Origin: Owenia fusiformis
Lineage: Eukaryota > Annelida > Polychaeta > Sabellida > Oweniidae
Direction: 5' to 3'
Assembly: GCA_903813345.2 (NCBI GenBank)
Contig: CAIIXF020000005.1
Location: 1,982,001 to 2,046,000, forward strand
Length of the DNA stretch: 64,000 nucleotides
Every line of letters starts with the position of its first letter. The stretch's first letter is position 1. This document shows, in pieces, positions 4,856-31,800 of the stretch. The notes beneath the pieces are model-generated. The model searched no databases. It saw nothing but the letters and a program-made list of their open reading frames with translations, and was not told the DNA's origin. Both the position numbers and the translations under genes were made by a program.

Positions 4856-7800
4856 CTATTTTTGGCGTTTCCGTGAGGGCTTGACAACATCAGTTACACT
4901 CCCAGTTGACCCAGGTTGGTTACGCTTTCTCTGGGAACGTCTTGTTTTTACAGGACTGGAAATACAGACATTCATTGACAAGATTTTAGATATTGATAAT
5001 TTTGGTCTAACATTAACACACAAAAGTAGTTTATGCATCTCAGTTTCAGTATAATTCAACACAATGTAAGGCATCCCCAGTCTTTGAACAATGAACTGCT
5101 ATCTATTAAGACTCCATATTATCATAGCTCATGAGTGAGTACTGTATGGTTTTAGTACAGCTCAGTTCAAATATTTGAGTCAATGAGCAGTCAATATATC
5201 ATTAATATAGTAAGTATTAATTTTTCCAGACATTTCACATTTTCTTCTGACAAACAAAAGGGAAATTATATCCAGAAATATCATTCACTATCCTGACATC
5301 TTTACTTCAAAGTTAAAAAGAGAAGTCTAAATCAGATTCTTCATTTTAGTGCAAGTATTCATCCTTAACATTTGAAAAAGTGCCTAATATGCTTACATAC
5401 TAAATGAACTTGCCTACTGGTGTAACTCCCATTGTTAAAAGATATCCTAATGTAACAAAAGTCATTGAAATGTTCAATAAATACATCAGAATTGATAATT
5501 GTCATCTTTAATTACCTTGCAGGAATGAAGCCACTCTCAGCAACTGCATCTCTGATCTCTGTATAACAATTACAACATGTCACCACTTGTGGTAGTGACA
5601 TAATAAATATATCAAATTGCCACCTTACCTTGCAGGAATGAAGCCACTCTCAGCAACTGCATCTCTGATCTCTGTATTACAATTACAACATGTCACCACT
5701 TGTGGTAGTGACATAATAAATATATCAAATTGCCATCTTACCTTGCAGGAATGAAGCCACTTTCAGCAACTGCATCTCTGATCTCTGTATAACAATTACA
5801 ACATGTCACCACTTGTGGTAGTGACATAATAAATATATCAAATTGCCATCTTACCTTGCAGGAATGAAGCCACTCTCAGCAACTGCATCTCTGATCTCTG
5901 TATTACAATTACAACATGTCACCACTTGTGGTAGTGACATAATAAATATATCAAATTGCCATCTTACCTTGCAGGAATGAAGCCACTCTCAGCAACTGCA
6001 TCTCTGATCTCTGTATTACAATTACAACATGTCACCACTTGTGGTAGTGACATAATAAATATATCAAATTGCCACCTTACCTTGCAGGAATGAAGCCACT
6101 CTCAGCAACTGCATCTCTGATCTCTGTATTACAATTACAACATGTCACCACTTGTGGTAGTGACATAATAAATATATCAAATTGCCACCTTACCTTGCAG
6201 GAATGAAGCCACTCTCAGCAACTGCATCTCTGATCTCTGTATAACAATTACAACAGGTCACCACTTGTGGTAGTGACATAATAAATATATCAAATTGCCA
6301 CCTTACCTTGCAGGAATGAAGCCACTCTCAGCAACTGCATCTCTGATCTCTGTATTACAATTACAACATGTCACCACTTGTGGTAGTGACATAATAAATA
6401 TATCAAATTGCCACCTTACCTTGCAGGAATGAAGCCACTCTCAGTAACTGCATCTCTGATCTCTGTATAACAATTACAACATATCACCACTTGTGGTAGT
6501 GACATAATAAATATATCAAATTGCCACCTTACCTTGCAGGAATGAAGCCGCTCTCAGCAACTGCATCTCTGTTCTCTGTATAACAATTACAACTTGTCAC
6601 CACTTGTGGTAGTGACATAATAAATATATCAAATTGCCACCTTACCTTGCAGGAATGAAGCCACTCTCAGCAACTGCATCTCTGATCTCTGTATTACAAT
6701 TACAACAGGTCACCACTTGTGGTAGTGACATAATAAATATATCAAATTGCCACCTTACCTTGCAGGAATGAAGCCACTCTCAGCAACTGCATCTCTGATC
6801 TCTGTATAACAATTACAACATGTCACCACTTGTGGTAGTGACATAATAAATATATCAAATTGCCACCTTACCTTGCAGGAATGAAGCCACTCTCAGCAAC
6901 TGCATCTCTGATCTCTGTATTACAATTAAAACATGTCACCACTTGTGGTAGTGACATAATAAATATATCAAATTGCCATCTTACCTTGCAGGAATGAAGC
7001 CACTCTCAGCAACTGCATCTCTGATCTCTGTATTACAATTACAACATCTCACCACTCGTGGTAGTGACATAATAAATTTATCAAATTGCCATCTTACCTT
7101 GCAGGAATGAAGCCACTCTCAGCAACAGCATCTCTGATCTCTGTATAACAATTACAACTTGTCACCACTTGTGGTAGTGACATAATAAATATATCAAATT
7201 GCCATCTTACCTTGCAGGAATGAAGCCACTCTCAGCAACTGCATCTCTGATCTCTGTATTACAATTACAACATGTCACCACTTGTGGTAGTGACATAATA
7301 AATATATCAAATTGCCATCTTACCTTGCAGGAATGAAGCTGTTCTCAGCAACTGCATTTCTGATCTCTGTATAACAATTACAACTTGTCACCACTTGTGG
7401 TAGTGACATAATAAATATATCAAATTGCTACCTTACCTTGCAGGAATGAAGCCACTCTCAGCAACTGCATCTCTGATCTCTGTATAACAATTACAACATG
7501 TCACCACTTGTGGTAGTGACATAATAAATATATCAAATTGCCACCTTACCAAGAATGAAGCCACTCTCAGCAACTGCATCTCTGATCTCTGTATTACAAT
7601 TACAACATGTCACCACTTGTGTTAGTGACATAATAAATATATCAAATTGCCACCTTACCTTGCAGGAATGAAGCCACTCTCAGTAACTGCATCTCTGATC
7701 TCTGTATAACAATTACAACATGTCACCACTTGTGGTAGTGACATAATAAATATATCAAATTGCCACCTTACCTTGCAGGAATGAAGCCACTCTCAGCAAC

Positions 7801-10800
7801 TGCATCTCTGATCTCTGTATAACAATAACAACATGTCACCACTTGTGGTAGTGACATAATAAATATATCAAATTGCCACCTTACCTTGCAGGAATGAAGC
7901 CACTCTCAGTAACTGCATCTCTGATCTCTGTATAACAATTACAACATGTCACCACTTGTGGTAGTGACATAATAAATATATCAAATTGCCACCTTACCTT
8001 GCAGGAATGAAGCCGCTCTCAGCAACTGCATCTCTGTTCTCTGTATAACAATTACAACTTGTCACCATTTGTGGTAGTGACATAATAAATATATCAAATT
8101 GCCACCTTACCTTGCAGGAATGAAGCCACTCTCAGTAACTGCATCTCTGATCTCTGTATTACAATTACAACATGTCACCACTTGTGGTAGTGACATAATA
8201 AATATATCAAATTGCCACCTTACCTTGCAGGAATGAAGCCACTCTCAGTAACTGCATCTCTGATCTCTGTATAACAATTACAACATGTCACCACTTGTGG
8301 TAGTGACATAATAAATATATCAAATTGCCACCTTACCTTGCAGGAATGAAGCCGCTCTCAGCAACTGCATCTCTGTTCTCTGTATAACAATTACAACTTG
8401 TCACCATTTGTGGTAGTGACATAATAAATATATCAAATTGCCACCTTACCTTGCAGGAATGAAGCCACTCTCAGTAACTGCATCTCTGATCTCTGTATTA
8501 CAATTACAACATGTCACCACTTGTGGTAGTGACATAATAAATATATCAAATTGCCATCTTACCTTGCAGGAATGAAGCAACTCTCAGCAACTGCATCTCT
8601 GATCTCTGTATTACAATTACAACATGTCACCACTTGTGGTAGTGACATAATAAATATATCAAATTGCCACCTTACCTTGCAGGAATGAAGCCACTTTCAA
8701 CAACTGCATCTCTGATCTCTGTATAACAATTACAACTTGTCACCACTTGTGGTAGTGACATAATAAATATATCAAATTGCCACCTTACCTTGCAGGAATG
8801 AAGCCACTCAGTAACAGCATCTCTGATCTCTGTATTACAATTACAACATGTCACCACTTGTGGTAGTGACATAATAAATATATCAAATTGCCACCTTACC
8901 TTGCAGGAATGAAGCCACTTTCAGCAACTGCATCTCTGATCTCTGTATAACAATTACAACTTGTCACCACTTGTGGTAGTGACATAATAAATATATCAAA
9001 TTGCCATCTTACCTTGCAGGAATTAAGCCACTCTCAGCAACTGCATCTCTGATCTCTGTATAACAATTACAACATGTCACCACTTGTGGTAGTGACATAA
9101 TAAATATATCAAATTGCCACCTTACCTTGCAGGAATGAAGCCACTCTCAGCAACTGCATCTCTGATCTCTGTATTACAATTACAACATGTCACCACTTGT
9201 GGTAGTGACATAATAAATATATCAAATTCCCACCTTACCTTGCAGGAATGAAGCCACTCTCAGCAACTGCATCTCTGATCTCTGTATAACAATTACAACA
9301 TGTCACCACTTGTGGTAGTGACATAATAAATATATCAAATTGCCACCTTACCTTGCAGGAATGAAGCCACTCTCAGCAACTGCATCTCTGATCTCTGTAT
9401 AACAATTACAACATGTCACCACCTGTGGTAGTGACATAATAAATATATCAAATTGCCACCTTACCTTGCAGAAATGAAGCCACTCTCAGCAACTGCATCT
9501 CTGATCTCTGTATAACAATTACAACATGTCACCACTTGTGGTAGTGACATAATAAATATATCAAATTGCCACCTTACCTTGCAGGAATGAAGCCACTCTC
9601 AGTAACTGCATCTCTGATCTCTGTATAACAATTACAACATGTCACCACTTGTGGTAGTGACATAATAAATATATCAAATTGCCACCTTACCTTGCAGGAA
9701 TGAAGCCACTCTCAGCAACAGCATCTCTGATCTCTGTATTACAATTACAACATGTCACCACTTGTGGTAGTGACATAATAAATATATCAAATTGCCACCT
9801 TACCTTGCAGGAATGAAGCCACTCTCAGCAACTGCATCTCTGATCTCTGTATTACAATTACAACATGTCACCACTTGTGGTAGTGACATAATAAATATAT
9901 CAATTGCCACCTTACCTTGCAGGAATGAAGCCACTCTCAGCAACTGCATCTCTGATCTCTGTATAACAATTACAACATGTCACCACTTGTGGTAGTGACA
10001 TAATAAATATATCAAATTGCCATCTTACCTTGCAGGAATGAAGCCACTCTCAGCAATTGCATCTCTGATCTCTGTATTACAATTACAACATGTCACCACT
10101 TGTGGTAGTGACATAATAAATATATCAAATTGCCACCTTACCTTGCAGGAATGAAGCCACTCTCAGTAACTGCATCTCTGATCTCTGTATAACAATTACA
10201 ACATGTCACCACTTGTGGTAGTGACATAATAAATATATCAAATTGCCACCTTACCTTGCAGGAATGAAGCCACTCTCAGTAACTGCATCTCTGATCTCTG
10301 TATAACAATTACAACATGTCACCACTTGTGGTAGTGACATAATAAATATATCAAATTGCCATCTTACCTTGCAGGAATGAAGCCACTCTCAGCAACTGCA
10401 TCTCTGTTCTCTGTATAACAATTACAACTTGTCACCATTTGTGGTAGTGACATAATAAATATATCAAATTGCCACCTTACCTTGCAGGAATGAAGCAACT
10501 CTCAGCAACAGCATCTCTGATCTCTGTATAACAATTACAACATGTCACCACTTGTGGTAGTGACATAATAAATATATCAAATTGCCACCTTACCTTGCAG
10601 GAATGAAGCCACTCTCAGCAACTGCATCTCTGATCTCTGTATAACAATTACAACATGTCACCACTTGTGGTAGTGACATAATAAATATATCAAATTGCCA
10701 CCTTACCTTGCAGGAATGAAGCCACTCTCAGCAACTGCATCTCTGATCTCTGTATAACAATTACAACATATCACCACTTGGGGTAGTGACATAATAAATA

Positions 10801-13800
10801 TATCAAATTGCCACCTTACCTTGCAGGAATGAAGCCGCTCTCAGCAACTGCATCTCTGATCTCTGTATAACAATTACAACATGTCACCACTTGTGGTAGT
10901 GACATAATAAATATATCAAATTGCCACCTTACCTTGCAGGAATGAAGCCGCTCTCAGCAACTGCATCTCTGATCTCTGTATAACAATTACAACATGTCAC
11001 CACTTGTGGTAGTGTCATAATAAATATATCAAATTGCCACCTTACCTTGCAGGAATGAAGCCACTCTCAGCAACTGCATCTCTGATCTCTGTATAACAAT
11101 TACAACATGTCACCACTTGTGGTAGTGACATAATAAATATATCAAATTGCCATCTTACCTTGCAGGAATGAAGCCAATCTCAGCAACTGCATCTCTGATC
11201 TCTGTATAACAATTACAACATGTCACCACTTGTGGTAGTGACATAATAAATATATCAAATTGCCACCTTACCTTGCAGGCATGAAGCCACTCTCAGCAAC
11301 TGCATCTCTGATCTCTGTATAACAATTACAACATGTCACTTCTTGTGGTAGTGACATAATAAATATATCAAATTGCCACCTTACCTTGCAGGAATGAAGC
11401 CACTCTCAGCAACTGCATCTCTGATCTCTGTATAACAATTACAACTTGTCACCACTTGTGGTAGTGACATAATAAATATATCAAATTGCCATCTTACCTT
11501 GCAGGAATGAAGCCACTCTCAGCAACTGCATCTCTGATCTCTGTATAACAATTACAACATGTCACCACTTGTGGTAGTGACATAATAAATATATCAAATT
11601 GCCACCTTACCTTGCAGGAATGAAGCCACTCTCAGTAACTGCATCTCTGATCTCTGTATAACAATTACAACATGTCACCACTTGTGGTAGCGACATAATA
11701 AATATATCAAATTGCCACCTTACCTTGCAGGAATGAAGCCACTCTCAGCAACAGCATCTCTGATCTCTGTATAACAATTACAACATGTCACCACTTGTGG
11801 TAGTGACATAATAAATATATCAAATTGCCATCTTACCTTGCAGGAATGAAGCTACTCTCAGCAACTGCATCTCTGATCTCTGTATTACAATTACAACATG
11901 TCACCACTTGTGGTAGTGACATAATAAATATATCAAATTGCCATCTTACCTTGCAGGAATGAAGCCACTCTCAGCAACTGGATCTCTGATCTCTGTATTA
12001 CAATTACAACATGTCACCACTTGTGGTAGTGACATAGTAAATATATCAAATTGCCATCTTACCTTGCAGGAATGAAGCCACTCTCAGCAACTGCATCTCT
12101 GATCTCTGTATAACAATTACAACTTGTCACCACTTGTGGTAGTGACATAATAAATATATCAAATTGCCACCTTACCTTGCAGGAATGAAGCCACTCTCAG
12201 CAACTGCATCTCTGATCTCTGTATTACAATTACAACATGTCACCACTTGTGGTAGTGACATAATAAATATATCAAATTGCCATCTTACCTTGCAGGAATG
12301 AAGCAACTCTCAGCAACTGCATCTCTGATCTCTGTATTACAATTACAACATGTCACCACTTGTGGTAGTGACATAATAAATATATCAAATTGCCACCTTA
12401 CCTTGCAGGAATGAAGCCACTCTCAGCAACTGCATCTCTGATCTCTGTATAACAATTACAACATGTCACCACTTGTGGTAGTGACATAATAAATATATAA
12501 AATTGCCATCTTACCTTGCAGGAATGAAGCCACTCTCAGTAACAGCATCTCTGATCTCTGTATAACAATTACAACATGTCACCACTTGTGGTAGTGACAT
12601 AATAAATATATCAAATTGCCACCTTACCTTGCAGGAATGAAGCCACTCAGTAACAGCATCTCTGATCTCTGTATTACAATTACAACATGTCACCACTTGT
12701 GGTAGTGACATAATAAATATATCAAATTGCCACCTTACCTTGCAGGAATGAAGCCACTCTCAGTAACTGCATCTCTGATCTCTGTATTACAATTACAACA
12801 TGTCACCACTTGTGGTAGTGACATAATAAATATATCAATTGCCACCTTACCTTGCAGGAATGAAGCCACTCTCAGCAACTGCATCTCTGATCTCTGTATA
12901 ACAATTACAACATGTCACCACTTGTGGTAGTGACATAATAAATATATCAAATTGCCACCTTACCTTGCAGGAATGAAGCCACTCTCAGCAACTGCATCTC
13001 TGATCTCTGTATAACAATTACAACATGTCACCACTTGTGGTAGTGACATAATAAATATATCAAATTGCCATCTTACCTTGCAGGAATGAAGCCACTCTCA
13101 GTAACTGCATCTCTGATCTCTGTATAACAATTACAACATGTCACCACTTGTGGTAGTGACATAATAAATATATCAAATTGCCACCTTACCTTGCAGGAAT
13201 GAAGCCACTCTCAGTAACTGCATCTCTGATCTCTGTATAACAATTACAACATGTCACCACTTGTGGTAGTGACATAATAAATATATCAAATTGCCACCTT
13301 ACCTTGCAGGAATGAAGCCACTCTCAGTAACTGCATCTCTGATCTCTGTATAACAATTACAACATGTCACCACTTGTGGTAGTGACATAATAAATATATC
13401 AAATTGCCACCTTACCTTGCAGGAATGAAGCCACTCTCAGTAACTGCATCTCTGATCTCTGTATAACAATTACAACATGTCACCACTTGTGGTAGTGACA
13501 TAATAAATATATCAAATTGCCACCTTACCTTGCAGGAATGAAGCCACTCTCAGCAACTGCATCTCTGATCTCTGTATAACAATTACAACATGTCACCACT
13601 TGTGGTAGTGACATAATAAATATATCAAATTGCCATCTTACCTTGCAGGAATGAAGCCACTCTCAGCAACTGCATCTCTGATCTCTGTATTACAATTATA
13701 ACATGTCACCACTTGTGGTAGTGACATAATAAATATATCAAATTGCCACCTTACCTTGCAGGAATGAAGCCACTCTCAGCAACTGCATCTCTGATCTCTG

Positions 13801-16800
13801 TATTACAATTACAACATGTCACCACTTGTGGTAGTGACATAATAAATATATCAAATTGCCATCTTACCTTGCAGGAATGAAGCCACTCTCAGCAACTGCA
13901 TCTCTGATCTCTGTATAACAATTACAACATGTCACCACTTGTGGTAGTGACATAATAAATATATCAAATTGCCACCTTACCTTGCAGGAATGAAGCCACT
14001 CTCAGCAACTGCATCTCTGATCTCTGTATAACAATTACAATATGTCACCACCTGTGGTAGTGACATAATAAATATATCAAATTGCCACCTTACCTTGCAG
14101 GAATGAAGCCACTCTCAGCAACTGCATCTCTGATCTCTGTATAACAATTACAACATGTCACCACTTGTGGTAGTGACATAATAAATATATCAAATTGCCA
14201 CCTTACCTTGCAGGAATGAAGCCACTCTCAGTAACTGCATCTCTGATCTCTGTATAACAATTACAACATGTCACCACTTGTGGTAGTGACATAATAAATA
14301 TATCAAATTGCCACCTTACCTTGCAGGAATGAAGCCACTCTCAGCAACAGCATCTCTGATCTCTGTATTACAATTACAACATGTCACCACTTGTGGTAGT
14401 GACATAATAAATATATCAAATTCCCACCTTACCTTGCAGGAATGAAGCCACTCTCAGCAACTGCATCTCTGATCTCTGTATAACAATTACAACATGTCAC
14501 CACTTGTGGTAGTGACATAATAAATATATCAAATTGCCACCTTACCTTGCAGGAATGAAGCCACTCTCAGCAACTGCATCTCTGATCTCTGTATTACAAT
14601 TACAACATGTCACCACTTGTGGTAGTGACATAATAAATATATCAAATTGCCATCTTACCTTGCAGGAATGAAGCCACTCTCAGCAACTGCATCTCTGATC
14701 TCTGTATTACAATTACAACATGTCACCACTTGTGGTAGTGACATAATAAATATATCAATTGCCACCTTACCTTGCAGGAATGAAGCCACTCTCAGCAACT
14801 GCATCTCTGATCTCTGTATAACAATTACAACATGTCACCACTTGTGGTAGTGACATAATAAATATATCAAATTGCCATCTTACCTTGCAGGAATGAAGCC
14901 ACTCTCAGCAATTGCATCTCTGATCTCTGTATTACAATTACAACATGTCACCACTTGTGGTAGTGACATAATAAATATATCAAATTGCCACCTTACCTTG
15001 CAGGAATGAAGCCACTCTCAGTAACTGCATCTCTGATCTCTGTATAACAATTACAACATGTCACCACTTGTGGTAGTGACATAATAAATATATCAAATTG
15101 CCACCTTACCTTGCAGGAATGAAGCCACTCTCAGTAACTGCATCTCTGATCTCTGTATAACAATTACAACATGTCATCACTTGTGGTAGTGACATAATAA
15201 ATATATCAAATTGCCATCTTACCTTGCAGGAATGAAGCCGCTCTCAGCAACTGCATCTCTGTTCTCTGTATAACAATTACAACTTGTCACCATTTGTGGT
15301 AGTGACATAATAAATATATCAAATTGCCACCTTACCTTGCAGGAATGAAGCCACTCTCAGCAACAGCATCTCTGATCTCTGTATAACAATTACAACATGT
15401 CACCACTTGTGGTAGTGACATAATAAATATATCAAATTGCCACCTTACATTGCAGGAATGAAGCCACTCTCAGCAACTGCATCTCTGATCTCTGTATAAC
15501 AATTACAACATGTCACCACTTGTGGTAGTGACATAATAAATATATCAAATTGCCACCTTACCTTGCAGGAATGAAGCCACTCTCAGCAACTGCATCTCTG
15601 ATCTCTGTATAACAATTACAACATGTCACCACTTGTGGTAGTGACATAATAAATATATCAAATTGCCACCTTACCTTGCAGGAATGAAGCCACTCTCAGC
15701 AACTGCATCTCTGATCTCTGTATAACAATTACAACATGTCACCACTTGTGGTAGTGACATAATAAATATATCAAATTGCCATCTTACCTTGCAGGAATGA
15801 AGCCAATCTCAGCAACTGCATCTCTGATCTCTGTATAACAATTACAACATGTCACCACTTGTGGTAGTGACATAATAAATATATCAAATTGCCACCTTAC
15901 CTTGCAGGAATGAAGCCACTCTCAGCAACTGCATCTCTGATCTCTGTATAACAATTACAACTTGTCACCACTTGTGGTAGTGACATAATAAATATATCAA
16001 ATTGCCACCTTACCTTGCAGGAATGAAGCCACTCTCAGCAACTGCATCTCTGATCTCTGTATAACAATTACAACTTGTCACCACTTGTGGTAGTGACATA
16101 ATAAATATATCAAATTGCCACCTTACCTTGCAGGAATGAAGCCACTCTCAGCAACAGCATCTCTGATCTCTGTATAACAATTACAACTTGTCACCATTTG
16201 TGGTAGTGACATAATAAATATATCAAATTGCCACCTTACCTTGCAGGAATGAAGCCACTCTCAGCAACAGCATCTCTGATCTCTGTATAACAATTACAAC
16301 ATGTCACCACTTGTGGTAGTGACATAATAAATATATCAAATTGCCACCTTACCTTGCAGGAATGAAGCCACTCTCAGTAACTGCATCTCTGATCTCTGTA
16401 TAACAATTACAACATGTCACCACTTGTGGTAGTGACATAATAAATATATCAAATTGCCACCTTACCTTGCAGGAATGAAGCCACTCTCAGCAACAGCATC
16501 TCTGATCTCTGTATTACAATTACAACATGTCACCACTTGTGGTAGTGACATAATAAATATATCAAATTGCCATCTTACCTTGCAGGAATGAAGCCACTCT
16601 CAGCAACTGCATCTCTGATCTCTGTATAACAATTACAACTTGTCACCACTTGTGGTAGTGACATAATAAATATATCAAATTGCCACCTTACCTTGCAGGA
16701 ATGAAGCCACTCTCAGCAACTGCATCTCTGATCTCTGTATTACAATTACAACATGTCACCACTTGTGGTAGTGACATAATAAATATATCAAATTGCCATC

Positions 16801-19800
16801 TTACCTTGCAGGAATGAAGCCACTCTCAGTAACTGCATCTCTGATCTCTGTATAACAATTACAACATGTCACCACTTGTGGTAGTGACATAATAAATATA
16901 TCAAATTGCCACCTTACCTTACAAGAATGAAGCCACTCTCAGTAACTGCATCTCTGATCTCTGTATAACAATTACAACATGTCACCACTTGTGGTAGTGA
17001 CATAGTAAATATATCAAATTGCCACCTTACCTTGCAGGAATGAAGCCACTCTCAGCAACTGGATCTCTGATCTCTGTATTACAATTACAACATGTCACCA
17101 CTTGTGGTAGTGACATAATAAATATATCAAATTGCCATCTTACCTTGCAGGAATGAAGCCACTCTCAGCAACTGCATCTCTGATCTCTGTATAACAATTA
17201 CAACATGTCACCACTTGTGGTAGTGACATAATAAATATATCAAATTGCCACCTTACCTTGCAGGAATGAAGCCACTCTCAGCAACTGCATCTCTGATCTC
17301 TGTATTACAATTACAACATGTCACCACTTGTGGTAGTGACATAATAAATATATCAAATTGCCACCTTACCTTGCAGGAATGAAGCCACTCTCAGTAACTG
17401 CATCTCTGATCTCTGTATAACAATTACAACATGTCACCACTTGTGGTAGTGACATAATAAATATATCAAATTGCCACCTTACATTGCAGGAATGAAGCCA
17501 CTCTCAGTAACTGCATCTCTGATCTCTGTATAACAATTACAACATGTCACCACTTGTGGTAGTGACATAATAAATATATCAAATTGCCACCTTACCTTGC
17601 AGGAATGAAGCCACTCTCAGTAACTGCATCTCTGATCTCTGTATAACAATTACAACATATCACCACTTGTGGTAGTGACATAATAAATATATCAAATTGC
17701 CACCTTACCTTGCAGGAATGAAGCCGCTCTCAGCAACTGCATCTCTGTTCTCTGTATAACAATTACAACTTGTCACCATTTGTGGTAGTGACATAATAAA
17801 TATATCAAATTGCCACCTTACCTTGCAGGAATGAAGCCACTCTCAGCAACTGCATCTCTGATCTCTGTATAACAATTACAACTTGTCACCACTTGTGGTA
17901 GTGACATAATAAATATATCAAATTGCCACCTTACCTTGCAGGAATGAAGCCACTCTCAGCAACTGCATCTCTGATCTCTGTATTACAATTACAACATGTC
18001 ACCACTTGTGGTAGTGACATAATAAATATATCAAATTGCCACCTTACCTTGCAGGAATGAAGCCACTTTCAGCAACTGCATCTCTGATCTCTGTATAACA
18101 ATTACAACTTGTCACCACTTGTGGTAGTGACATAATAAATATATCAAATTGCCACCTTACCTTGCAGGAATGAAGCCACTCAGTAACAGCATCTCTGATC
18201 TCTGTATTACAATTACAACATGTCACCACTTGTGGTAGTGACATAATAAATATATCAAATTGCCACCTTACCTTGCAGGAATGAAGCCACTCTAAGCAAC
18301 TGCATCTCTGATCTCTGTATAACAATTACAACATGTCACCACTTGTGGTAGTGACATAATAAATATATCAAATTGCCACCTTACCTTGCAGGAATGAAGC
18401 CACTCTCAGCAACTGCATCTCTGATCTCTGTATAACAATTACAACATGTCACCACTTGTGGTAGTGACATAATAAATATATCAAATTGCCATCTTACCTT
18501 GCAGGAATGAAGCCACTCTCAGCAACTGCATCTCTGATCTCTGTATAACAATTACAACATGTCACCACTTGTGGTAGTGACATAATAAATATATCAAATT
18601 GCCATCTTACCTTGCAGTAATGAAGCCACTCTCAGCAACTGCATCTCTGATCTCTGTATAACAATTACAACATGTCACCACTTGTGGTAGTGACATAATA
18701 AATATATCAAATTGCCACCTTACCTTGCAGGAATGAAGCCACTCTCAGCAACTGCATCTCTGATCTCTGTATAACAATTACAACATGTCACCACTTGTGG
18801 TAGTGACATAATAAATATATCAAATTGCCACCTTACCTTGCAGGAATGAAGCCACTCTCAGCAACTGCATCTCTGATCTCTGTATAACAATTACAACATG
18901 TCACCACTTGTGGTAGTGACATAATAAATATATCAAATTGCCACCTTACCTTGCAGGAATGAAACCACTCTCAGCAACTGCATCTCTGATCTCTGTATTA
19001 CAATTACAACATGTCACCACTTGTGGTAGTGACATAATAAATATATCAAATTGCCACCTTACCTTGCAGGAATGAAGCCACTCTCAGCAACTGCATCTCT
19101 GATCTCTGCATAACAATTACAACATGTCACCACTTGTGGTAGTGACATAGTAAATATATCAAATTGCCACCTTACCTTGCAGGAATGAAGCCACTCTCAG
19201 TAACTGCATCTCTGATTTCTGTAAGATCTGGGATCCAGTCGGAGTCAGCAGTTGATCTGAAGCAATAGTGATATCTCCAATATAAATGTCTTTAAGGTTG
19301 GGGATGTCTTTGATTAATGTCATTAATGCACTTTTTACTATTCCTTTTTTAATATGTTTTTATGGCTTTTTCCTTTGACCAATGTGCTTGCATATCATCA
19401 AAATGAATACAGCTTAAAAGCCACTTTTACAAGTTCCAAACTAGATAGTAGGGCCATTGATGCCAATTCTGAAAATTATTTGGAGAAAAAATAAGAAGTC
19501 TGACACAAGCATGTACAAAGAAATTATTCTTAAGACATGATTCAAAAGGTTGGTGTACATGTGGTTACTCATATATTTTCACAATTTGAAAGTCATTGTC
19601 TTGTTTTATTCCAATAGGATGGTACAAACTACTCACTTTTGCTTCTTAGCTCTAGCAGCTCTGGTTTTCTTGGCCTTGTTTACTGTGTTACCACTGGGTT
19701 CATCCACCAAATCATCACTGGGGTCATCAAAGAGATTGTCAGACCTCTGGAACATCCACATGTTCAATTTTATAGTGTCTTATCAAGAGATGCTATCGAA

Positions 19801-22800
19801 TAGGGGGATGCAAGGTTACTTTATTTCCTTATTTTATAATATTACTAGCATACAGTATGAACAGCATTAACATGCAAAATGTCACCACCTGCCGTTTGTT
19901 ACCACTTGTAGTGGTGACATGACAAACCAAACTAGATCACAGGCATGTGTATTACATATTGTCTTGTTTTACAGCCTTTAGAAAACTTTGGTAGTCAAAT
20001 TCTAGAAAGGTCAACATTTGTATATTATTTTTGAAGAAAAAATTCATGATCCATCCATAAATCCATATTACAAGAAAGTTTGAACCACGTGCATGTCTTG
20101 CCCCTCACGTGCATGTCTTGCCCCTGGTATATTAAAAAGCCTACCTGTGTTTCTGTAGGTCCTTGAAGTATCAATGTAGATGTAGTGCTCAGGTCAGAGT
20201 CAGATCTAACAAGGTCAGGCTTGGAAAGTGGCCCATCTGTAGTATCAGCCAATAAATCTGAAACATTGGAATCATATTTTCAATATATTGAATTTAATTA
20301 AAATTATGTTATTTTTCACAATAGAAATGTGTTATTTTTCAAAAGAACTATGTTATCAGGCTTAAAATTATAAACTTTATATGTATGATACTGGAACTTT
20401 AGATTTAGTGAGTATGTGAGGATTGGTCTTAACAAAGTCCCAAGGGAATTGAAATTATTTTAACATAAATTGTGTTTTTGTTTCAATTCTGTCTTTTGCC
20501 ACAATCCTGGTTTGTTATTTCACAATCTTCACGAAATAGTACATGTACATGTATAGGAGTATTTTTCAAGATATGGGCCATTTGCTTGAATATGATTCTG
20601 GTTAGATCAATGTTCCTTATAGATAGTATTCCAAACCTGAATTCTGTCTGACCATGTTGTAAGGCAGTGTGTCAGTTGTGTTGTCATCTTGAAAGGATGG
20701 CTCAATCAATGCAGATACTTTTGCTTTCTTGTTTTCAACAATCTTGTTGCTTTCATGACTTGTAGGTCCTAATTCTTCCTGCTCCCTCAGATCTGCTTCT
20801 ATCTGTTTAGCCACCTCTTGTCCCGTAGTATGGAGGATATCAGTTAGGGCAGTGTCTAGTTGATCAACCGTCTTAACAGTATTCATGCTTACATTTTTAG
20901 GAATCAATTCTTTTGGTCTTTGATTTGTTTTCACATTCTTAATCGATGGTTTTGTTTCAGAGTTAACACTATTTTTCAAGTTTGTGGATTTATTCATTGA
21001 TTTTTTCATACTTGAAGGTAATGGGCCTATGTTAAAATCCTCATCAGAGTCCACTTTAGATGTATCTAGTGTTTTATCAATCCCGGAGGGTTTCTTAATA
21101 AATGTTAAGGGAGTTAGAGTTCTTTTATGATTTGGAGCAGACTTGGGTGTCTCAGAAATAAATGTTTGAGTCTCTTTAAATGTGTTGAAAGCACCAATGA
21201 AATCAGTAGATGGGGTTATACCAGGTGACCTCCCTAATGTCTTATGTGTTGAGCTGCCTGGAGTTTCTGCCAAGCTGGAGGGTTTCTCAATAGAGGTCGC
21301 ACCAGGAGATGTGGGATCTGCCATGCTTTTAACTGGTAGCTTTCCTAAGTCCCCATCAGGAGATGTATCTGTAAAGAGGTTCTTAAAAGTATGTCTCTTG
21401 GAGGGAATAACATTGGGAGTTTTAGATGTTGATGTTTGTATATTCTGTTTGGTTGGGTTGTCAAGGTTACTGGAGACTGATGAGGCACTGTCACCATGGT
21501 TACCATGTTTACTTGAACCCTCTGTACTGTAACCTTGGTTAAAAGAGACATCAGATGTACATGAAGAATCAGAAGTCGTTGAACTGTAACCTTGGATACT
21601 AGAGTCTGATGTCACAGTGTCTGAGCTTGTAGATGATTCTGCAGGTTTAATCTTGCGGCCTTTCATCCTCTCTTTGGTAGCCTGGATCAAGTCCTTGAAA
21701 TGGGAGTTGTGTTTCTTAACTGGAAATATATTGATTTGATCAAGTAATGTATTCCATTCAAAGGGATATTTTTGAATTAAAATCAATATTTAATTCATAG
21801 ATGAAATTTAACTGATTCTTCATTTTTTGGTATTTTTAGTTGTCATTCTTAGTTACATATAATGCAAATAATCTGAACATCCCAACATCTCAAAATTCAA
21901 TGCAAATTCAAATAAATCTTAAAGATTAATTTACAGAATTCATGACAGTGGACAACGAGAATGGAGACCACTTACCATAATTTTTCTGTGCTTTTTCAAC
22001 AGCATCAGGTGGCGCCCCCTTCTTTATGACCAGACTCTAAAATAATACAATCAGCGATAATATCAGAATGTCATCTAATACCAAACAAGTCTGAGAATTA
22101 AAAACAACAACACACTGCATGCAATGATGCAATATTACAATAGCCCCTAAGGAAATTAGAAAAAGTGAAATTGATGAATGAGTAAAAGTTAAAAATAATC
22201 AAGTAGTTTCAGAAGAGTTTGGTGTATCACAGTTATATATGACCCCTCATCAGACAAGGCCAAGAGACAAGTAATTTTAATCAGAGCTAACTGATGTCTT
22301 CAGCAAGCATAGGAAAATAATAATAATAATAACAACAGGTTCATTATTAAATTTTTACCAGTATGTTTGGAATGGTTAAGACTCAATATACACATTCTAG
22401 ACTTACATGTGCGTTAACGACCATTGGTTTAAAATTGAGCATCTCATTCCTCTCAACCTCGGCAAGAATGGCAGACACTGAAATCAAAATATGTGAGTTG
22501 CTATACATCTCTGTATTCAATTTCAACTGAGTAATGAATGAATTTGCAGAGTTTATATTAATACATTTGTTCATAGTGCACACTAATATAAGATGGTATA
22601 AACCTGGTCTTGGTGAAGCAGCGTCGCATTCGCTGTTGTATAGCAAGGTATACTCATGATGCCTCTTTATCATGGCCTTCCTGTCCCCCTGTGTACTGAG
22701 ACCTTCGTTCTGTAGCCTCTTTTTCAAATCTTTATCCTTAATCAATGTGTATACAAGCTTAGGGAGTCGCTTTCTCTTCGGCATTGGTCTACAGAAAGGG

Positions 22801-25800
22801 AGGATTGAGTAAGTAAAGTTCAAATGATTTTTACAGAGGCTTACATATTGGTAAAATCCAGTGCATGTACTATGCATGTTTGTTCAGTTTTGATGATCCA
22901 AAATATGAGGTAAATGATTTAAATGAAAAGTCATGCATGTAATCTATGGAAGATGAAACACCAAATAGTTAAAATAAAAGTATATCTGGGTCTGGAAATG
23001 GTATAGTCATAGTGTAAAAATCCACATATAATTTAAACCTGACCAAAATATAGAACTAGGAACACTAAGAGTATGGCACTGTATATTGGTTATGGTACCC
23101 TTCAATTTTGGTGCTGTATAGTGTTTACGTTATCGTATGGCACTGTTTTAGTCTACAGTACTTTGTGGTACCATATTTCATGGTACAGTACAGTAGCCAA
23201 ATCAGTAACATAGGGTACTATTAGAGATTCGATATGTTCAGAAACTACATTTCAAAATATGTGCTAACTCACGGAGGACTAGGTAAAGAATCTGAGGGAT
23301 CTTCAGTTGATTTCTTGAGGCAACGGTCTAGATGTATGTTGATGAAACGTTCCTTCACAGGCACACCACAAATTGGACAAGGCACTACAATTAAAATAAA
23401 AATATACATTTTCAAGTAACATGTATGCGAAAAGTTGAGACCACTTATACGTGTATATTAGAACTTGGTTACTATGGTGTCCATGTCAACCTAGGCAGAT
23501 TCAAATTATTTCAGATAACTCAGCTCACATGTAGTTGTAATTGTGATATAAAGAACGGACTGGCAAACCAAAAATGTAATTGATTTCACTTGATCCACTC
23601 ATGTATTTAGCTTATAGGCTTTCATTTTTTCATGTAGTTGGCCAAGTGTCTGAAGAGACATCTTTTCAAATATGTGGGGTAATTTTCATGTTAATTTTCC
23701 ATACGAAAGTTACTAACCTTTTGGCAAATTTGGATTGGAGCTAAAGTGTGGAGTCTCTATTGCTGCATCAGATCCAGCCACTGGGGAGACCGACTCAATG
23801 GCTTGAGGGCTCCTTAGACTCTGACTATGTGTCACTGAATCACTGTCTGTGGTCTGGTTTATTCCTTGAGTTGACATTGCACTACTAGTATTTGTTGAAG
23901 ATTGGAATGAATTTGATCCAATATTTGTATCTGCACCAATGGAATGATTGTCTCTTTCAGGTATGGAACTATTGTTTGTATAAGTACTGGTATTGTTTAT
24001 TGCATGACCACTGACAGGGCCAGTGTGGATGTCCTCTAACCTTGTATCACTGGGAGTAATGTCTATGTCCGTATCTGTCACTGAGGAAGTTAAGGTGTTG
24101 GGTGTAGACATGGGGAGGGGGGTGTTGGGCACACTGTCTGCTTCATTGGGCTGAACCATGCTCTGAAATGATATATAGGCATTATAGTTCATTGAACATG
24201 TAATTCATTTCAGTTCATGAGGATAAAGAGAAAAAGAGAATTATTCATTGAATTTCTGTTTTATTTGTGGTGTTTGCTAAGTTGTATTTATTAAAAGATG
24301 GCATATATGTTCTCATAGTCAGGAAAGCTTTAGTCCATGCAAGGAGGATTGGATCCCAGGATCGAAACTAAATATTTTCCAACAATGAAAATGTTGAAAT
24401 GTCATTATTTTCTGAAATTATAACCAACTATATATTCAAAACAGTTCAAAAGATTCGGACCAATATCTTGATTATTTCTTGTGAGTTTTGGAATTTTTCG
24501 TTAGAAATTAAGACCAAAATTCAGGATTCAAATGTTGAAGTAAACAAAATGGCAGCTGTTTGAATTCAAATTTTGTATCACAACATGCCCGTATATGGAA
24601 CAAAATATCGATGCTGAACTCTGGGAGCCAATCCTCCTGGAGTCCATGCATGCAGAATGTTGAGCCGTGCATTTGCTTTCCATTTCGATATACATTTGTA
24701 TTGGAATCATTAACAATGTTAATAGGATGGATCTTCAAAATAATTACTTTGTGGTTATATCATAAAACATTCTTTACATTTAATGAAAAAACAGTAATAT
24801 ACAAGTTTAGGATGTTCACTTTAATAATTCAATATTAAGCTAATAATGAAGTAATAGGGTCAAGATGACCTTAATGTTATCGCTTCCCTCAACACAATGT
24901 GTAATATTCATAAGAGAAGTAACATGCATTGAATACAATTCAAGACCAAACATCTTTATACATACCATTAATACTAAATATACTTAAGGTGAGGAATAGA
25001 GACGAAAGATATACGAGTATGACCATATGCTCTAGTAAATATGGTAATAAACACAGCCCCACACAAAAGTTAGGCCCTTGTAGATTAATCAGTTGACTAT
25101 TGAAATCATTTCTGAAAAAAGATCCATAAACCAGATTTTTTCTTTTATCTCAAACAATATCAAATCAGCAAATGAAACAAAATGCCTTAAATTCAAAAAA
25201 GAAGAATAGAATGGTATAGCCATGTTGGATTTTGAATTTTAAACAACTGATTCATATTAAAGGGCCTCATAACTTCAAAGGTTGACTTCACCTCCATAGC
25301 ATCTGTTTATATGCTGGATTGCAGGTTAAATAAAACAGTAGCTATTGAGAATAGAGGAAATAAGCAGTAAACTTAAGTGTTTCAAAAATAATGATGAATC
25401 ATTGACAAAAATACTGATATAACATTGGATATAGGAGTTAAAAAAATATTCATCTTCATGGTAACAAGTAACATGTCTAGTTTTTCAGCATCAACATTAA
25501 AAGTAGCATTACTTTTATTCCTAGCAATATTCATGTTAGCGACATGGCTACTATATCATCAGCTACAACCAGCTGGAAGTCTTTCAAATCGAAGTAACGT
25601 GAAAATTGAGAAAATCAACACAAAGAAAATCGATGAAAATGGAAACTACAAACCATTTCCTGGGTATACAGTTATTGCAAAGTGTCGCCAAGACCAGAAG
25701 TTAGATATTCTAAAGGACTTCATTGAGAAATCGCATTTGAGAAAATATTATTCCCCGCTGCCAGTGTCATCGTATCACATGTCACTCAGTAGGTTACCGA

Positions 25801-28800
25801 AGCTAAACAATTCCTTTCATGACGCATCCAATAAAGCGATACATGTACCATTAAAACGAGCGATGGAATTATCAAAGAAAATGTTACCCAAATCCATGAA
25901 AGTGAGGTTAAAACTGGACAAGAAAGGAAATCCATCGCGAATACTTCCCAGCATGCTTGTGGAGATCATTGATAAAAAGAAGCAAGACTCAGTGAATAAA
26001 TTTCAACGTAAATGTAAGGAGGAATTTGGAGTACAGTTAAATTGGTTAGCCAAACATGGATTCCATATTGCCCTCGCATACAGATATAAAGAGATTCCAC
26101 AAGAAGATAAATGGATTATAGATGGCGAGATACGCAAACTTGGGAAAACTGCATTGAAGTTATTCCCAATTGAACTTGAGCAAGGGGGTGTTTTCACATT
26201 TAAAGATATGACAGAATTTATGCCTTATAAAGCATAAACTTGCCTCATACATTGAGCTCAAAGAGTAAAAATGAGTGATGTACGTACAAGCTTGCATGAT
26301 ACAAGATAGTGACTGATCTATGCAAAACATCGTCGTCTTGTGGATGCTTATATTATAGTCTAAATAAATGAACACGGTAAATCCTATATCCTATACAGTA
26401 CCTGACATTGAGAGAAACATGAGCAAGATTGTAAATAATATTCTACAGTTTTTGACCATTTTGGTTTACGTTTTTTATAACTATACTCAGTGACAAACTA
26501 CTGTGTTCCAGTTAATAATCAGGGAGTCTTAGGTGCATCACCTTTTTCTGATTTGCTTTTACCTACTTTAAAATAGCAATTAATGTGTAGATTTGAATAG
26601 ACATTTTTAAAAATTTAAATTGTGTGTGATTTTGATCAAAACATTTTGAGATCATCTTTGAGCACAAAGTAGCATGTGAAGACCAAAAATATCACCCTTG
26701 GTACATGCAGTTACCAATAATGTGCTGGGCGGATGTGAAAGCATGACTTTGGCTGTGCCAATAGTTCCTTTTGAACTTTAATAACCTATATCTCACTTCA
26801 TGTCAACCTTTTTGTCTCATACAGTATTTCAAATGTATGATGCCTTGGAGTGTTTGGAATGCCCCAAGAACTTGCTCATTGTAGTTTGACAGGCACACTC
26901 CCAGCCAATGGTTATTTTTGAATTTAAATTACACTTTCTAATTTAAATTCAAAAACACCCATCCCACCCCCAGTCAAACTTTTGAACCCGTCAATTATCA
27001 GTAGCTGCGTATACCAATGGTGCTATATGGGTGATAAAAGACCATGATTACTTACAGTTGAACCTGAATCTGTCTTTACAGGTTTTCTGCCATTGTTAAG
27101 GTTCTTTAGAAAGAACTCCAGCTTTATCAGGTGATTCCTCTTAGTAATTCCTAAGTCATTAACCATCATCTGAATCAAATATGTGTAAATGTTTAGTCAT
27201 GTATGGAATATTCAATTACAAATTAATACAAAAGTGTACACGAGGGATGCCCAAGAAGTCAAGCATTTTTGTTCAAACTTTCCCATATACTTTTGTAATG
27301 ATTTGTCATTATGTTTATACTGTATTAAAACAAACATAAACTTATATTATCATGGACTTGCGCATTATTTATCTCATTATTATGTCAATCTCTTCAAAAG
27401 GATTAAATGAACTGCTGCTACTGAAATAATTGAATTGAATACTGACCTCTTTGGTAAGGCTACCAATGGTATCCATGGTGAATCCTGCACCTCGTATTGT
27501 GTCATACAGCTCCTGGAGATTGATACTGCTTAGCCACGTAAACATGGGACGATCCTGGTGGTTAAAACATTCAATTAAAACTTCACTATGATATACATTC
27601 TACCAAACAGCCTTACTATATATTCATGTCCAGGGTGGACCAATAAAATGAATACCCTTATTATAGTAGTGTCAATCAAAATGGGTAACATTTTTTTGGC
27701 CCAGCCAGTAGCATACAAATACTTTTTTGTATTTTTTACGAAAAGAACATCATTTATTTTTCAGTTTTTTTTAAATGATATTTACTTCAATTTTGGCTTA
27801 AAAAGAGTGGCAATAAGAAAGTCTTACTTTTTTGTTGTTGTGTTTAGGTGTGTTGCCTGATGTGTGGATTGGTCTCCCAGGCGATGCAAGATCAGGCACT
27901 GCCTTGGCTGCTAACACAAGGTTATCCCTACAATGATCAGTTGCATACAATTAATAAATGAACCAAATTAGTGCATCCACATAAAATAATATATCAATTC
28001 TTTCGAACTTTAAATGTAGATTTTTTCCCTGCTTTTAAGAAGATTGATAAGAATATCAACAGAGTATACAGAACCATAAGAATATAACCAGTCATAATGA
28101 TAATAAACCCAAATACAGACTGTACTGCAAAATATGGTCTAAAGTACAATGAAACAATGTCTAACAGTACTACCCTCCCCATCTTTAAGGAACCTTTATC
28201 AAATATCGTTGTAGATACTAGTATTAATACAAGATACAGCATTCAGTCTTTAACATATTGAGTACATGTAATAAAATTTTGCAACATTCAGAGATACAAC
28301 CAATATGTGATTTTGCATCATAATGAGACCTCCATTTTCCATAGAAGTGTGCCACCTTTTTAACATATATAAGTTTATTCTCATATAAGACAGACACATT
28401 GATCACAATGTGTATGACCACTGGGACTCTATTGCAATTTTGCAGCTCCTACCTGACTTCTTGATATTTCTTAATGATCTCATCTACCAGTCTGTTGTTC
28501 TTTAGTTCTGGGGCAGATACACTCTACAATAAATTGAAATAAATGTACATTTGTGTTTACTCAGAACTTGAAAAAATCAGCCAATGGACTTATTTTAGGT
28601 AACTACTACAAAATCACAAGTTATTTTACGCTAAAATAAGTTAGAGTAGCCGGGGACAGCACTAATATAATAATACTTTGCAGATTTCAGTACAGTGCAT
28701 TAAAGTTTTGGCCAATGCTATACAGAAAATGTATAGTAGTCCAACTTACCACAGAACATGTTGGACATTGTGACTTGTAATTGATGTAGCGGCGTATACA

Positions 28801-31800
28801 TCTTGAGCAGTCTGAAACAATAAGGATAACAAAGGACATAGTGAATAACAATTAGGACCACATAGAACAGTGTGGATAACACAAAAACACAGTGGATAAC
28901 ACAGGGACAGGGAAGATAACATTAGCCAGTTTGAATTCCACCATGATTAAAGCATGAAATCTGGTATGATTGGGTTCAATTCCCAGTTCAGGCAAAAGTA
29001 TGCATTGTTATCTATGAACAATTGAACATATGTCAGTGTCTGTGTTTTGGTGCAAAATAACACTGAGAACGCTTCAAATCACCAGGTCTGTGAAATGTAT
29101 GTACCAATGGATTACAGAAAAAGTTACAGAAATACAGCAATATTGAGATAACCCAGACAAAAGTGATGGCAAAAAGTCTACTGATATTGATACAGTGATA
29201 AGTTCTGTTGATTTTATTCCATTTTTGTGGAATATAATTGATGAATTGTATTTGTCACATATAGTGACTGAGGTATCATGTCATTTCATAAGAACATTCT
29301 ATCGTTTTTATGTGGTATTACCATAGCTGTGTTGAAGTATTTAAAACAATCATATTTCAGTATACATGTACATGTATTACCTTGGCATTACATGTATTAT
29401 ATATCATATTTATTACTTACAAGTATGGCTGCACTGTGGTATTACCATAGCTGTGTTGAAGTATTCAAAACAGACAGGACATCTTAACAGGTTGTCAAGA
29501 TCCTACAATAAAAATTGTAAACAAATTACCACAATTGCAAAAATATTAATTAATCTAACCCAGGCATCCACCATGACCTACATGTATCATGATTCATTGT
29601 CGAATCCAGGGTGGGGCCAGAATTTTTTTTAGGGCTCAATTTTCCGTTTTAAGGGCCCAAAATCTTTTCCCCCTTGTGTGGGGACAGAATTTTTTTTTGG
29701 GGTTTTAAGGGCCTAAAATTTTTTTCTTGACTTAAAATGTGCCCCCCCCCCCTCTTGTTAGCTTCTCGATCCACCAGTGTGATCTATCATCATATAGGAT
29801 ACAATTGTCGACCTCTCTAGAGGTCAACTGGCAAAACTGTATACCGAGACTGTAAACTGAGAAACTACTGTTGACAGAGACCGAAGGTCAAGGTAGTTTC
29901 AAGTAGTAGTTTCAAGGTTTACAGTCAAGGTGTATGACTCTGACGGTTGACCGAATGGAGAGGTCTACAATTGCTTTGTTAGTCAGAATAAACTAATAAT
30001 ACACATATAGACGACAATCATCAATCATGGCTTCATTTCACAATCCTTTCTCCGAACCACGCCAGACAGACAGTGGTAGCTAATCTCTCAGTTTTCGGCA
30101 CATGACAGCGTACTCACTAGGAAATTAATGTTAATTTTATGTTTATATTTGTATTTTTGCTACACTTGTCATCTAGTAAAGTCAAAATATCACTTTCATC
30201 AACGTTTACAATGTCCATCTACCATGTTTTTTCTGTAAACATTATGAGGTCATATTCCCCATAATTCACAAGTGTAGTACAGTAACATACATGGTCAATA
30301 ATATGATATCCCATGATGAACAGGTAGGGTACAGGCAAAAATGTTGACCGCTAATTGACCAATCAGATGCGAGTATTTACACTGAAGTACTAACTACATC
30401 ATTTATTCCATAATTATTTTATCATCCTCTGTCATCCATTATTATCACCTTTGTTCACCTACTGTCATATATCATCTATCATCAGCAATAACCATAAATA
30501 ATCATTTATCATCATCTTTAATAATCTATCACCTCTTGCAGGCCCGAAGCTAGGATTAGCCAAGGGGATTCACTTATTAAATAAAAAATTCCAGGGGGGG
30601 TTCACTTTTTGACAACTTTTGCCCAAAAAGGGTCAAAATCACTTGAAAAGTGGCTTCCCCAAATTATTTAACATTTCTATACAAAATTAACTCTAGCTTG
30701 GGTAAAATAAGCGTTATTTCATAATGCAATCGATTCTTCATATTACTATTAATATATGATAATAAAAACGCATAATGCTTTCAAGTCAGTAAAGGCAGAT
30801 TTGAACTTCTGAAAACTTGTAGCTAATTTTGAAAAAAACCTGATGTCAGTCTAAACAGTATTTGCTAAGTTATTGGAAGTTTTTTAAGAATTTGTTACAG
30901 ACGCCAAGAAGATTTATTACAGACGCCAACCGGGACCACAAAAAAATGGAGACCATAACAATATGTCACCAGCTTTTTGGTGGTGACATAATAATACCCA
31001 AACAATCAAAGCAAATTTTAAAGCGAATTTGCGTTATCAATTCATTTCCAAAGAAAGTATCCTTATATCACACCCTGTTCAATCGGGAGTGTATTGGTGT
31101 ATAAATTGATAATTTATCTACTTTGTAATAGGGGATAATCATTGTCTAATTGTACTTAAGTGTTATAATGAATTATGGACAAATTATATTTCTTTTAATT
31201 AACTGCGTCTTTTATATTTAGAATGAAGTGATTACGTTATCATAATCCAAGTAATCTAACCTATCTGTATCAGCATTAATTAGTGTACAATGTACATGTA
31301 ATATGAAAAAATATTAAAGAAGATATAATAATCCGGTCTCTCATGAAAGCATTTTCTGCCATACTTCTTGACTTTGATAATTATTTAAAAATTAATTCGA
31401 GGCTCCAGATGCAAGAAAGTATTCCTATATCCCTGAGAGCAGCTACATGTAAATCAGGCTTAACAAATGCTTACTTCATAAGTTATCGAAAATAATCAGA
31501 CTTAGGAACTCTAGGGTTAAGAGTCATATACCATTTCATTGATGGATTTTATAGTGTTTTTTAAGTGTATAATTTTCTGCAAAAGCTTTTGAGCACACAT
31601 TACATGCAAAACGCTTTTCTCCTGTATGTACTTTTAGGTGCGCAACAAGATTACAATTTGTTGCAAATTCTTTAGAGCAAACATCACATTTTAAAGTTTT
31701 TTCTCCTGTGTGTAGTCTATAATGTCTTGAGAGAGTATAGGAAACTGCGAAGGTTTTCGAGCAAACATCACATTTGAAATTCTTTTCCCCAGTATGGGTT

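Follow-up and report, generated by a model that had tools for sequence, protein, structure and literature searches.

Why would a gene carry more than a hundred copies of one of its own 5' splice sites within a single intron? This question is raised by a 64,000-nucleotide stretch of the genome of the annelid Owenia fusiformis (contig CAIIXF020000005.1, positions 1,982,001 to 2,046,000 of the forward strand; hereafter the window), where the last intron of RAD18 is mostly occupied by a tandem array whose unit joins the end of a coding exon to its donor. We consider it likely, with a probability of about 0.7, that the array is a very large "mirage" minisatellite, i.e., a tandem repeat lying across an exon-intron boundary. 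It would be a near-neutral passenger that disturbs splicing little, and it would belong to a rare, already described kind that recurs in this genome. A function of the array is most likely absent or slight.

The array in the last intron of RAD18

The features on which the argument rests are given below in positions of the window.

4856-4955, minus strand: last exon, coding part, with a basic tail, a TAG stop and the acceptor TGTATTTCCAG/T
4956-19175, minus strand: last RAD18 intron (14,220 bp), most of it array
5512-19223, minus strand: tandem array of a 43-nt exon piece, a donor that is mostly AAG/GTAAG followed by G or A, and a 70-nt GT..AG stretch (from Tandem Repeats Finder (TRF), unit alignment and counts)
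5512-5558, minus strand: last partial copy, exon piece and GTAA, then intron lacking the element (TTAAAGATGACAATT..TATTTATTGAAC), which is homologous with the first part of the unit's intron
19175, minus strand: first intron base after the real donor AAG/GTAAGG
19176-19256, minus strand: real penultimate coding exon, 81 nt, whose 3' 43 nt are the first repeat copy; phase fits on both sides, acceptor CTTCAG/ATC
19637-19746, minus strand: preceding RAD18 exon, in phase with the penultimate exon

TRF reports one array with a period of 113, 121.5 copies and 97% matches. The exon 3' piece is found in 122 copies on the minus strand, which are the real exon and 121 copies downstream of it, and of the 121 intervals between copies, 114 measure 113 bp and the remainder 109-112 bp. 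On the minus strand the unit consists of AGATCAGAGATGCAGTTGCTGAGAGTGGCTTCATTCCTGCAAG, 43 nt long, and a further 70 nt that begin with GTAAGG and end with TTATACAG. The GT after the exon piece is kept in 122 of 122 copies, as is the CAG before it, which in the real RAD18 exon is exon-internal. Because an AG closes each unit, the unit has the form of a 43-nt exon with a 70-nt GT-AG mini-intron behind it. Most donors read AAG/GTAAGG (84/122) or AAG/GTAAGA (30/122, both in undisturbed register) and the others are small variants; the last copy has GTAATT. Between the end of the array and the last exon, which starts at 4955, lie 557 bp.

These results bear out most of a preliminary description of the window, which had placed about 121 units of 113 bp in the 14.2-kb last intron, from the real exon to 557 bp before an in-phase last exon, and had counted as many donor copies downstream of the real donor. 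Its account of the unit held for the exon half, the near-consensus donor and the intron part of about 70 bp, and missed the AG in each unit, a weak acceptor, as well as the part derived from a dispersed repeat. It was also right that the unit is no generic satellite. The exon-donor word GCTTCATTCCTGCAAGGTAAG occurs 112 times in the genome, on one strand only, and all of the 100 matches listed lie within the RAD18 array. The 5' part of the penultimate exon occurs once in the 498-Mb assembly (at most 2 mismatches allowed). A generic satellite is therefore ruled out. A structured RNA is likewise rejected, with no Rfam family and no tRNA in the window, and no long open frame crosses the array, the longest having 93 codons.

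The host gene extends upstream as follows; 12 exons were placed in this analysis, and the penultimate one had been labelled exon 16 in the preliminary description.

20145-29502, minus strand: upstream RAD18 exons, with first bases at 29502 and 28811 (RING), 28523, 23384 (UBZ4-like), 22788 (SAP) and 22477
20637-21719, minus strand: long exon
20145-20257, minus strand: further upstream exon
40857, minus strand: end of the presumed first exon

The RING, UBZ4-like and SAP segments match human RAD18. A Pfam scan of two of these pieces placed SAP above the cut-off and returned no match above it for the UBZ4-like piece. Genome-wide, a RAD18 query reaches at least 78% identity at this locus only, and 12 other matches, in the RING-side part, are 28-45% identical; no paralogue or retrocopy was found in this comparison. 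The penultimate and last exons join in phase (...FIPA joined to SPVKTRRSQRKRNQPGSTGSVTDVVKPSRKRQK and the stop), and the translated join of the preceding, penultimate and last exons ends in ...TADSDWIPDLTEIRDAVTESGFIPASPVKTRRSQRKRNQPGSTGSVTDVVKPSRKRQK before the stop. Two further observations concern the gene. A 38-nt copy of the RING exon piece 29435-29472, 97% identical, lies at 29311-29348, 124 bp downstream in the following intron, and makes a second, single exon-to-intron duplication within RAD18. At 31539-32549 on the minus strand, downstream of the presumed first exon and upstream of the RING exon, lies a C2H2 zinc-finger open frame of 337 codons.

Make-up and turnover of the repeat unit

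Part of the unit spacer matches dispersed sites on 11 of 12 large contigs (at least 43 scored matches). In the copies fetched, this part is the 5' end of a short element that starts near TTATTATGTCACCACCACAAGTGGTGACATATTGTTA and often ends near GGCAGGTGGTGACATTTTGCATGTTAATGCC. Since its ends are inverted, the element in the spacer can be called a palindromic, MITE-like (miniature inverted-repeat transposable element) dispersed repeat. Beyond the last copy the intron continues as GTAATTAAAGATGACAATTATCAATTCTGATGTATTTATTGAAC, which aligns locally with the beginning of the unit spacer; 0 of 1557 random stretches of the window reached its score. As this intron aligns with the spacer start yet lacks the element, the element is placed at the junction between copies. 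Further traces of it are found near the array and elsewhere:

19862-19920 (core 19896-19920), minus strand: relic of this palindromic element, reduced by deletion, in the intron just upstream of the exon at 19637-19746
4352: further copy or relic of the core, beside the RAD18 3' end
C5:16204972, C4:25450062, C11:7314774, C6:13418012, C6:33481783: tandem arrays holding the core

These arrays, which hold the core AAGTGGTGACAT, came from a targeted search and have units of 24, 27, 34, 41 and 47 bp; the 27-bp array has little beyond the core in common with the element. Satellite arrays derived from the ends of mobile elements are a known phenomenon. The recurrence of the element end in tandem arrays elsewhere in the genome fits this pattern, whereas the RAD18 unit also holds a coding exon end and a donor.

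Two units differ on average at 3.1 positions. There are 61 different unit types among 121 copies, in irregular order, and five positions with common variants are scattered along the array. Over lags 1-109 there is no fixed higher-order period, and no block of identical units exceeds 4 (found at a lag of 43 units). Scattered variants, short blocks and the lack of a fixed period are the pattern expected from unequal exchange, and not from a misassembled duplicate. The edges stand outside this homogenisation, as the last copy has an element-free intron and ACAGAAATC is present in the first copy only. The array thus evolves in concert, with its edges excluded.

The variation and the junctions suggest how the array may have arisen. 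First, a stretch across the exon-intron boundary (the 3' half of the exon, its donor and the beginning of the intron) would have been duplicated in tandem, with the break at the element end. From there, 121 copies of a 113-bp unit, still about 97% alike, could have been reached through local conversion and unequal exchange.

Donor-anchored arrays in other genomes and other genes

The preliminary description knew of no described case of this layout. Such cases have been reported. In amphioxus, tandem repeats called mirages lie across exon-intron boundaries, carry AG/GT signals in their copies and are homogenised within the array with the edges excluded (PMC3087553; PMC3902484). The hosts described are Adh3, the globins BflGb6 and BflGb9, troponin C and PGBD5, the mirages are unstable, and no effect on splicing is observed (PMC3087553; PMC3902484). 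The units measure 10-72 or 150-160 bp, and BflGb6 has 3 and 6 units in two haplotypes (PMC3087553; PMC3902484). The RAD18 array shares this plan: its unit spans the boundary (43 nt of exon, the donor and 70 nt), its copies fill the adjoining intron with the real exon (19256-19176) as the 5'-most copy having its own full boundary, and AG/GT signals are present in 122 of 122 copies. It differs from the amphioxus mirages in its 121 units, the dispersed-repeat end in the unit, the intron-length spacer with its own AG and the annelid host. The element end, the spacer length and the AG in every unit are new relative to the known kind.

Two human systems match the layout as well. The 31-bp variable number tandem repeat (VNTR) of CBS, c.1444_1467+7(16_21), lies across an exon-intron boundary (PMC2630376), and from its name it repeats 24 nt of exon end and 7 nt of intron, hence the donor, 16-21 times. 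Unlike in RAD18, its spacers are far below intron length, the copies are fewer, and the accessible part of the source mentions no mobile-element part (PMC2630376). Internal tandem repeats at exon-intron boundaries of human genes can create new introns, as De Grassi and Ciccarelli (2009) describe (PMC2812944); these differ from the RAD18 array in their average unit of 30 bp, their copy number of about 4 and their location in segmental duplications (PMC2812944). A limited literature search, judged by titles for annelids and Owenia, found no report of donor-anchored mirage arrays in protostomes.

The layout is not unique within the O. fusiformis genome either. A random sample of 18 stretches of 10 kb (180 kb) contained two more donor-anchored arrays. 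The first (L031:4717-5761, C3:20,004,717-20,005,761) repeats the end of a C2H2 zinc-finger exon and its donor in 8.8 units of 119 bp. The second (L038:8719-9171, C8:10,008,719-10,009,171) has GGTGAGTTGTT-like units that begin at the exact donor of a homeodomain exon and hold the intron side only. Three of the sample's 31 non-redundant arrays were read closely (L031, L038 and L041:6397) and six more by a Pfam scan of open frames, which gave no match at these six nor at two window arrays. Of 47 TRF rows with a period of at least 60 in the 180 kb, two have a unit donor with 8 of 9 consensus matches, and one of the two, in L041, lacks a recognisable exon. Therefore, a near-consensus donor in a repeat unit is not rare by itself.

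A genome-wide search for paired donor words (CAGGTAAGT) 89-119 bp apart gave 177 pairs. Among the 100 pairs listed (as far as C9), we counted by eye 18 loci and 10 of one dispersed repeat. At ten places (e.g., C1:58205010 and C8:146711) there is a dispersed repeat that begins with CAGGTAAGTATGACGTAATATT and has two donor words about 92 bp apart. Upstream edges were fetched for 13 of the 18 non-dispersed loci, and 10 of the 13 start at an apparent exon end with an open frame running into the donor, the other three (L051, L053, L056) being ambiguous. Among the ten exon ends, Pfam places an ion-channel pore, an NIF phosphatase and B56 above the cut-off, and a kringle and a kinase below it. PDB matches make the ion-channel pore exon KCNT1-like and B56 a PP2A subunit. 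The KCNT-like array (C3:3138007-3139603, L047/L058) repeats the pore exon end, selectivity filter included, and the donor in 14 copies of a 115-bp unit; at its breakpoint the donor GTAAGT runs into the exon GTCACATTC, with GT common to both. The kinase exon has about three donor copies.

Both edges were read at six loci (KCNT-like, NIF, B56, C6:28053, C1:58193 and zinc finger), and there the first copy is a complete exon end. Past the last copy, non-repeat sequence follows a donor within 9 nt in four of the six and slightly further on in two. Within the unit, intron accounts for 2 to 33 nt at these six loci and at the kringle array but for 70 nt in RAD18, the only one of the eight measured with an intronic part long enough for an intron. 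The RAD18 array is also the largest donor-anchored array seen in this analysis. Ten loci were read on past the first donor, and in eight of them, the zinc-finger array and seven found through the donor search, a stop follows. The ten include L045 (C9:14148774 on, 51-bp units) and L046 (C8:16840457 on, 54-bp units), which have a donor word per unit and a frame open throughout the fetched stretch; they are perhaps coding repeats grown from an exon end. Minisatellites are frequent in the sampled genome, and those overlapping a donor seem to be tolerated.

Splicing of the array and alternative explanations

Splice-site strength was scored with matrices of 11 donors and 11 acceptors of RAD18. The unit donor AAG/GTAAGG scores 10.26 in the matrix that includes it, and 0 of 551 other GT sites attain this value; with a matrix trained without it the score is 8.81, which 8 of the gene's 560 GT sites attain, counting true donors. 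Real RAD18 donors score -0.77 to 9.15 when each is left out. The unit acceptor scores -1.61 compared with 2.38 to 12.73 for the 11 real acceptors (leave-one-out), 202 of 535 other AG sites score at or above it, and the exonic ancestor of the unit AG, at 5.16, is above it too. Strong unit donors combined with poor unit acceptors favour the use of the donor nearest the real acceptor. As the copied acceptor is below 11 of 11 real ones, the predicted splicing is from the real donor to the last exon, and the array is predicted to be a near-neutral passenger, probably mostly ignored by splicing. The 81-nt exon would be recognised through its own acceptor and the donor closest to it, with the AGs of the array as weak acceptors, and the acceptor of the last exon would be used across the 14.2-kb intron, in which the array carries 121 latent donors.

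Translation shows what a departure from this would cost. Inclusion of one, two or three units yields ...FIPARDQRCSC and a stop, use of the second AG yields ...FIPARSEMQLLRVASFLQVL and a stop, and retention of the intron or reading on yields ...FIPAR and a stop. Any array inclusion or intron retention truncates RAD18 with loss of the basic tail, and a leak into the array would thereby end the protein early. The units do not qualify as mutually exclusive exons, which keep the frame and both splice sites, since 43 nt is no multiple of 3, stops follow and the acceptor is weak.

One alternative is that splicing takes up one or many of the units into a message as 43-nt cassette exons, leading to truncated RAD18 or nonsense-mediated decay. 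Each unit has an AG, a 43-nt exon, a strong donor and a 70-nt GT..AG spacer whose hairpin joins both ends, and no variant occurs in the GTAAG and AG columns of the copies compared. However, the unit acceptor lies under every real RAD18 acceptor and is equalled by many other AG sites, exons of 43 nt are short, and the exon part is more variable than the spacer (minor columns 21/41 compared with 22/67). We find this quite unlikely. A broader form of the idea would make donor-anchored mirages a large class in the genome and the RAD18 array a set of about 120 nascent cassette exons, each an intron-length unit with acceptor, exon and donor, some of them spliced or circularised and tuning the amount of full-length RAD18; this we regard as unlikely. 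It is likewise quite unlikely that the array acts through its donors, where 121 U1 sites would compete with the real donor, slow the splicing of the last intron or shield the long intron from early polyadenylation. The donor copies equal the real donor, and the transcribed strand of the array has no AATAAA or ATTAAA where about 9.5 AATAAA would be expected from base composition, an expectation qualified by the repetition of one 113-bp unit being close to a single draw. On the other hand, selection on the donor columns is not clearly visible, the occurrence of the layout in unrelated genes does not suggest a role specific to RAD18, and the amphioxus cases are reportedly without splicing disturbance (PMC3087553).

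Two alternatives concern the locus itself. The gene might end elsewhere, with 4856-4955 not being the last exon of RAD18. The assignment rests on phase, acceptor and stop; the tail matches vertebrate RAD18 at chance level only, and downstream there is ATTAAA (4485, 3836 and 3150) and no AATAAA within 1.8 kb. Nevertheless, phase, acceptor and the basic tail with its stop all fit, and a gene stopping at the penultimate exon would meet no poly(A) signal through the array or the flank before the last exon, which makes another gene end very unlikely. The copy number could also be an artefact, i.e., the expansion or collapse of a shorter or longer array, and one amphioxus mirage was apparently misassembled in a draft genome (PMC3087553). 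This is highly improbable for RAD18, as the 61 unit types are in irregular order without a long repeated block and the window has no N.

Several results nonetheless weigh against a passenger array of a recurring kind. GT and AG are intact in all 122 copies, although for columns this is not unusual (P 0.105). For the seven columns of GTAAG and AG, variant-free in 121 copies compared (the last copy, with GTAATT, left out), P is 0.018, with the set picked after inspection; selection on the unit splice sites is at most suggested. The 70-nt spacer folds into a hairpin joining both ends (-18.5 kcal/mol, z -1.98, 7 of 200 shuffles as stable) that could help splicing, although the fold of exon plus spacer is not exceptional (z -1.11, 31 of 200 shuffles). 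The splice matrices were trained on no more than 11 sites each, and the unit donor was itself among them. As for recurrence, Pfam recognises nothing at five of the ten apparent exon ends. The 177 donor pairs compare with 108 for a reversed control word, yet by eye 100 of those 108 comprise 18 loci and 2 of one dispersed repeat, and single ten-base words number 1329 for the donor and 1667 for the control. Since the control word has about as many array loci, preferential array formation at donors cannot be claimed.

As a very large mirage, the RAD18 array would represent one end of a series. Donor-anchored arrays of the same layout are found in other genes of this genome, and the duplication of exon ends, proposed as raw material of intron gain, is visible here at several stages, from about three donor copies in the kinase exon and 14 in the KCNT-like pore exon to 121 in RAD18. 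Automated gene finding and read mapping will probably go wrong at such loci. With 122 near-equal donors before one acceptor, the array is a natural test of how the spliceosome chooses a donor, either the one nearest the acceptor, as in exon definition, or by competition.

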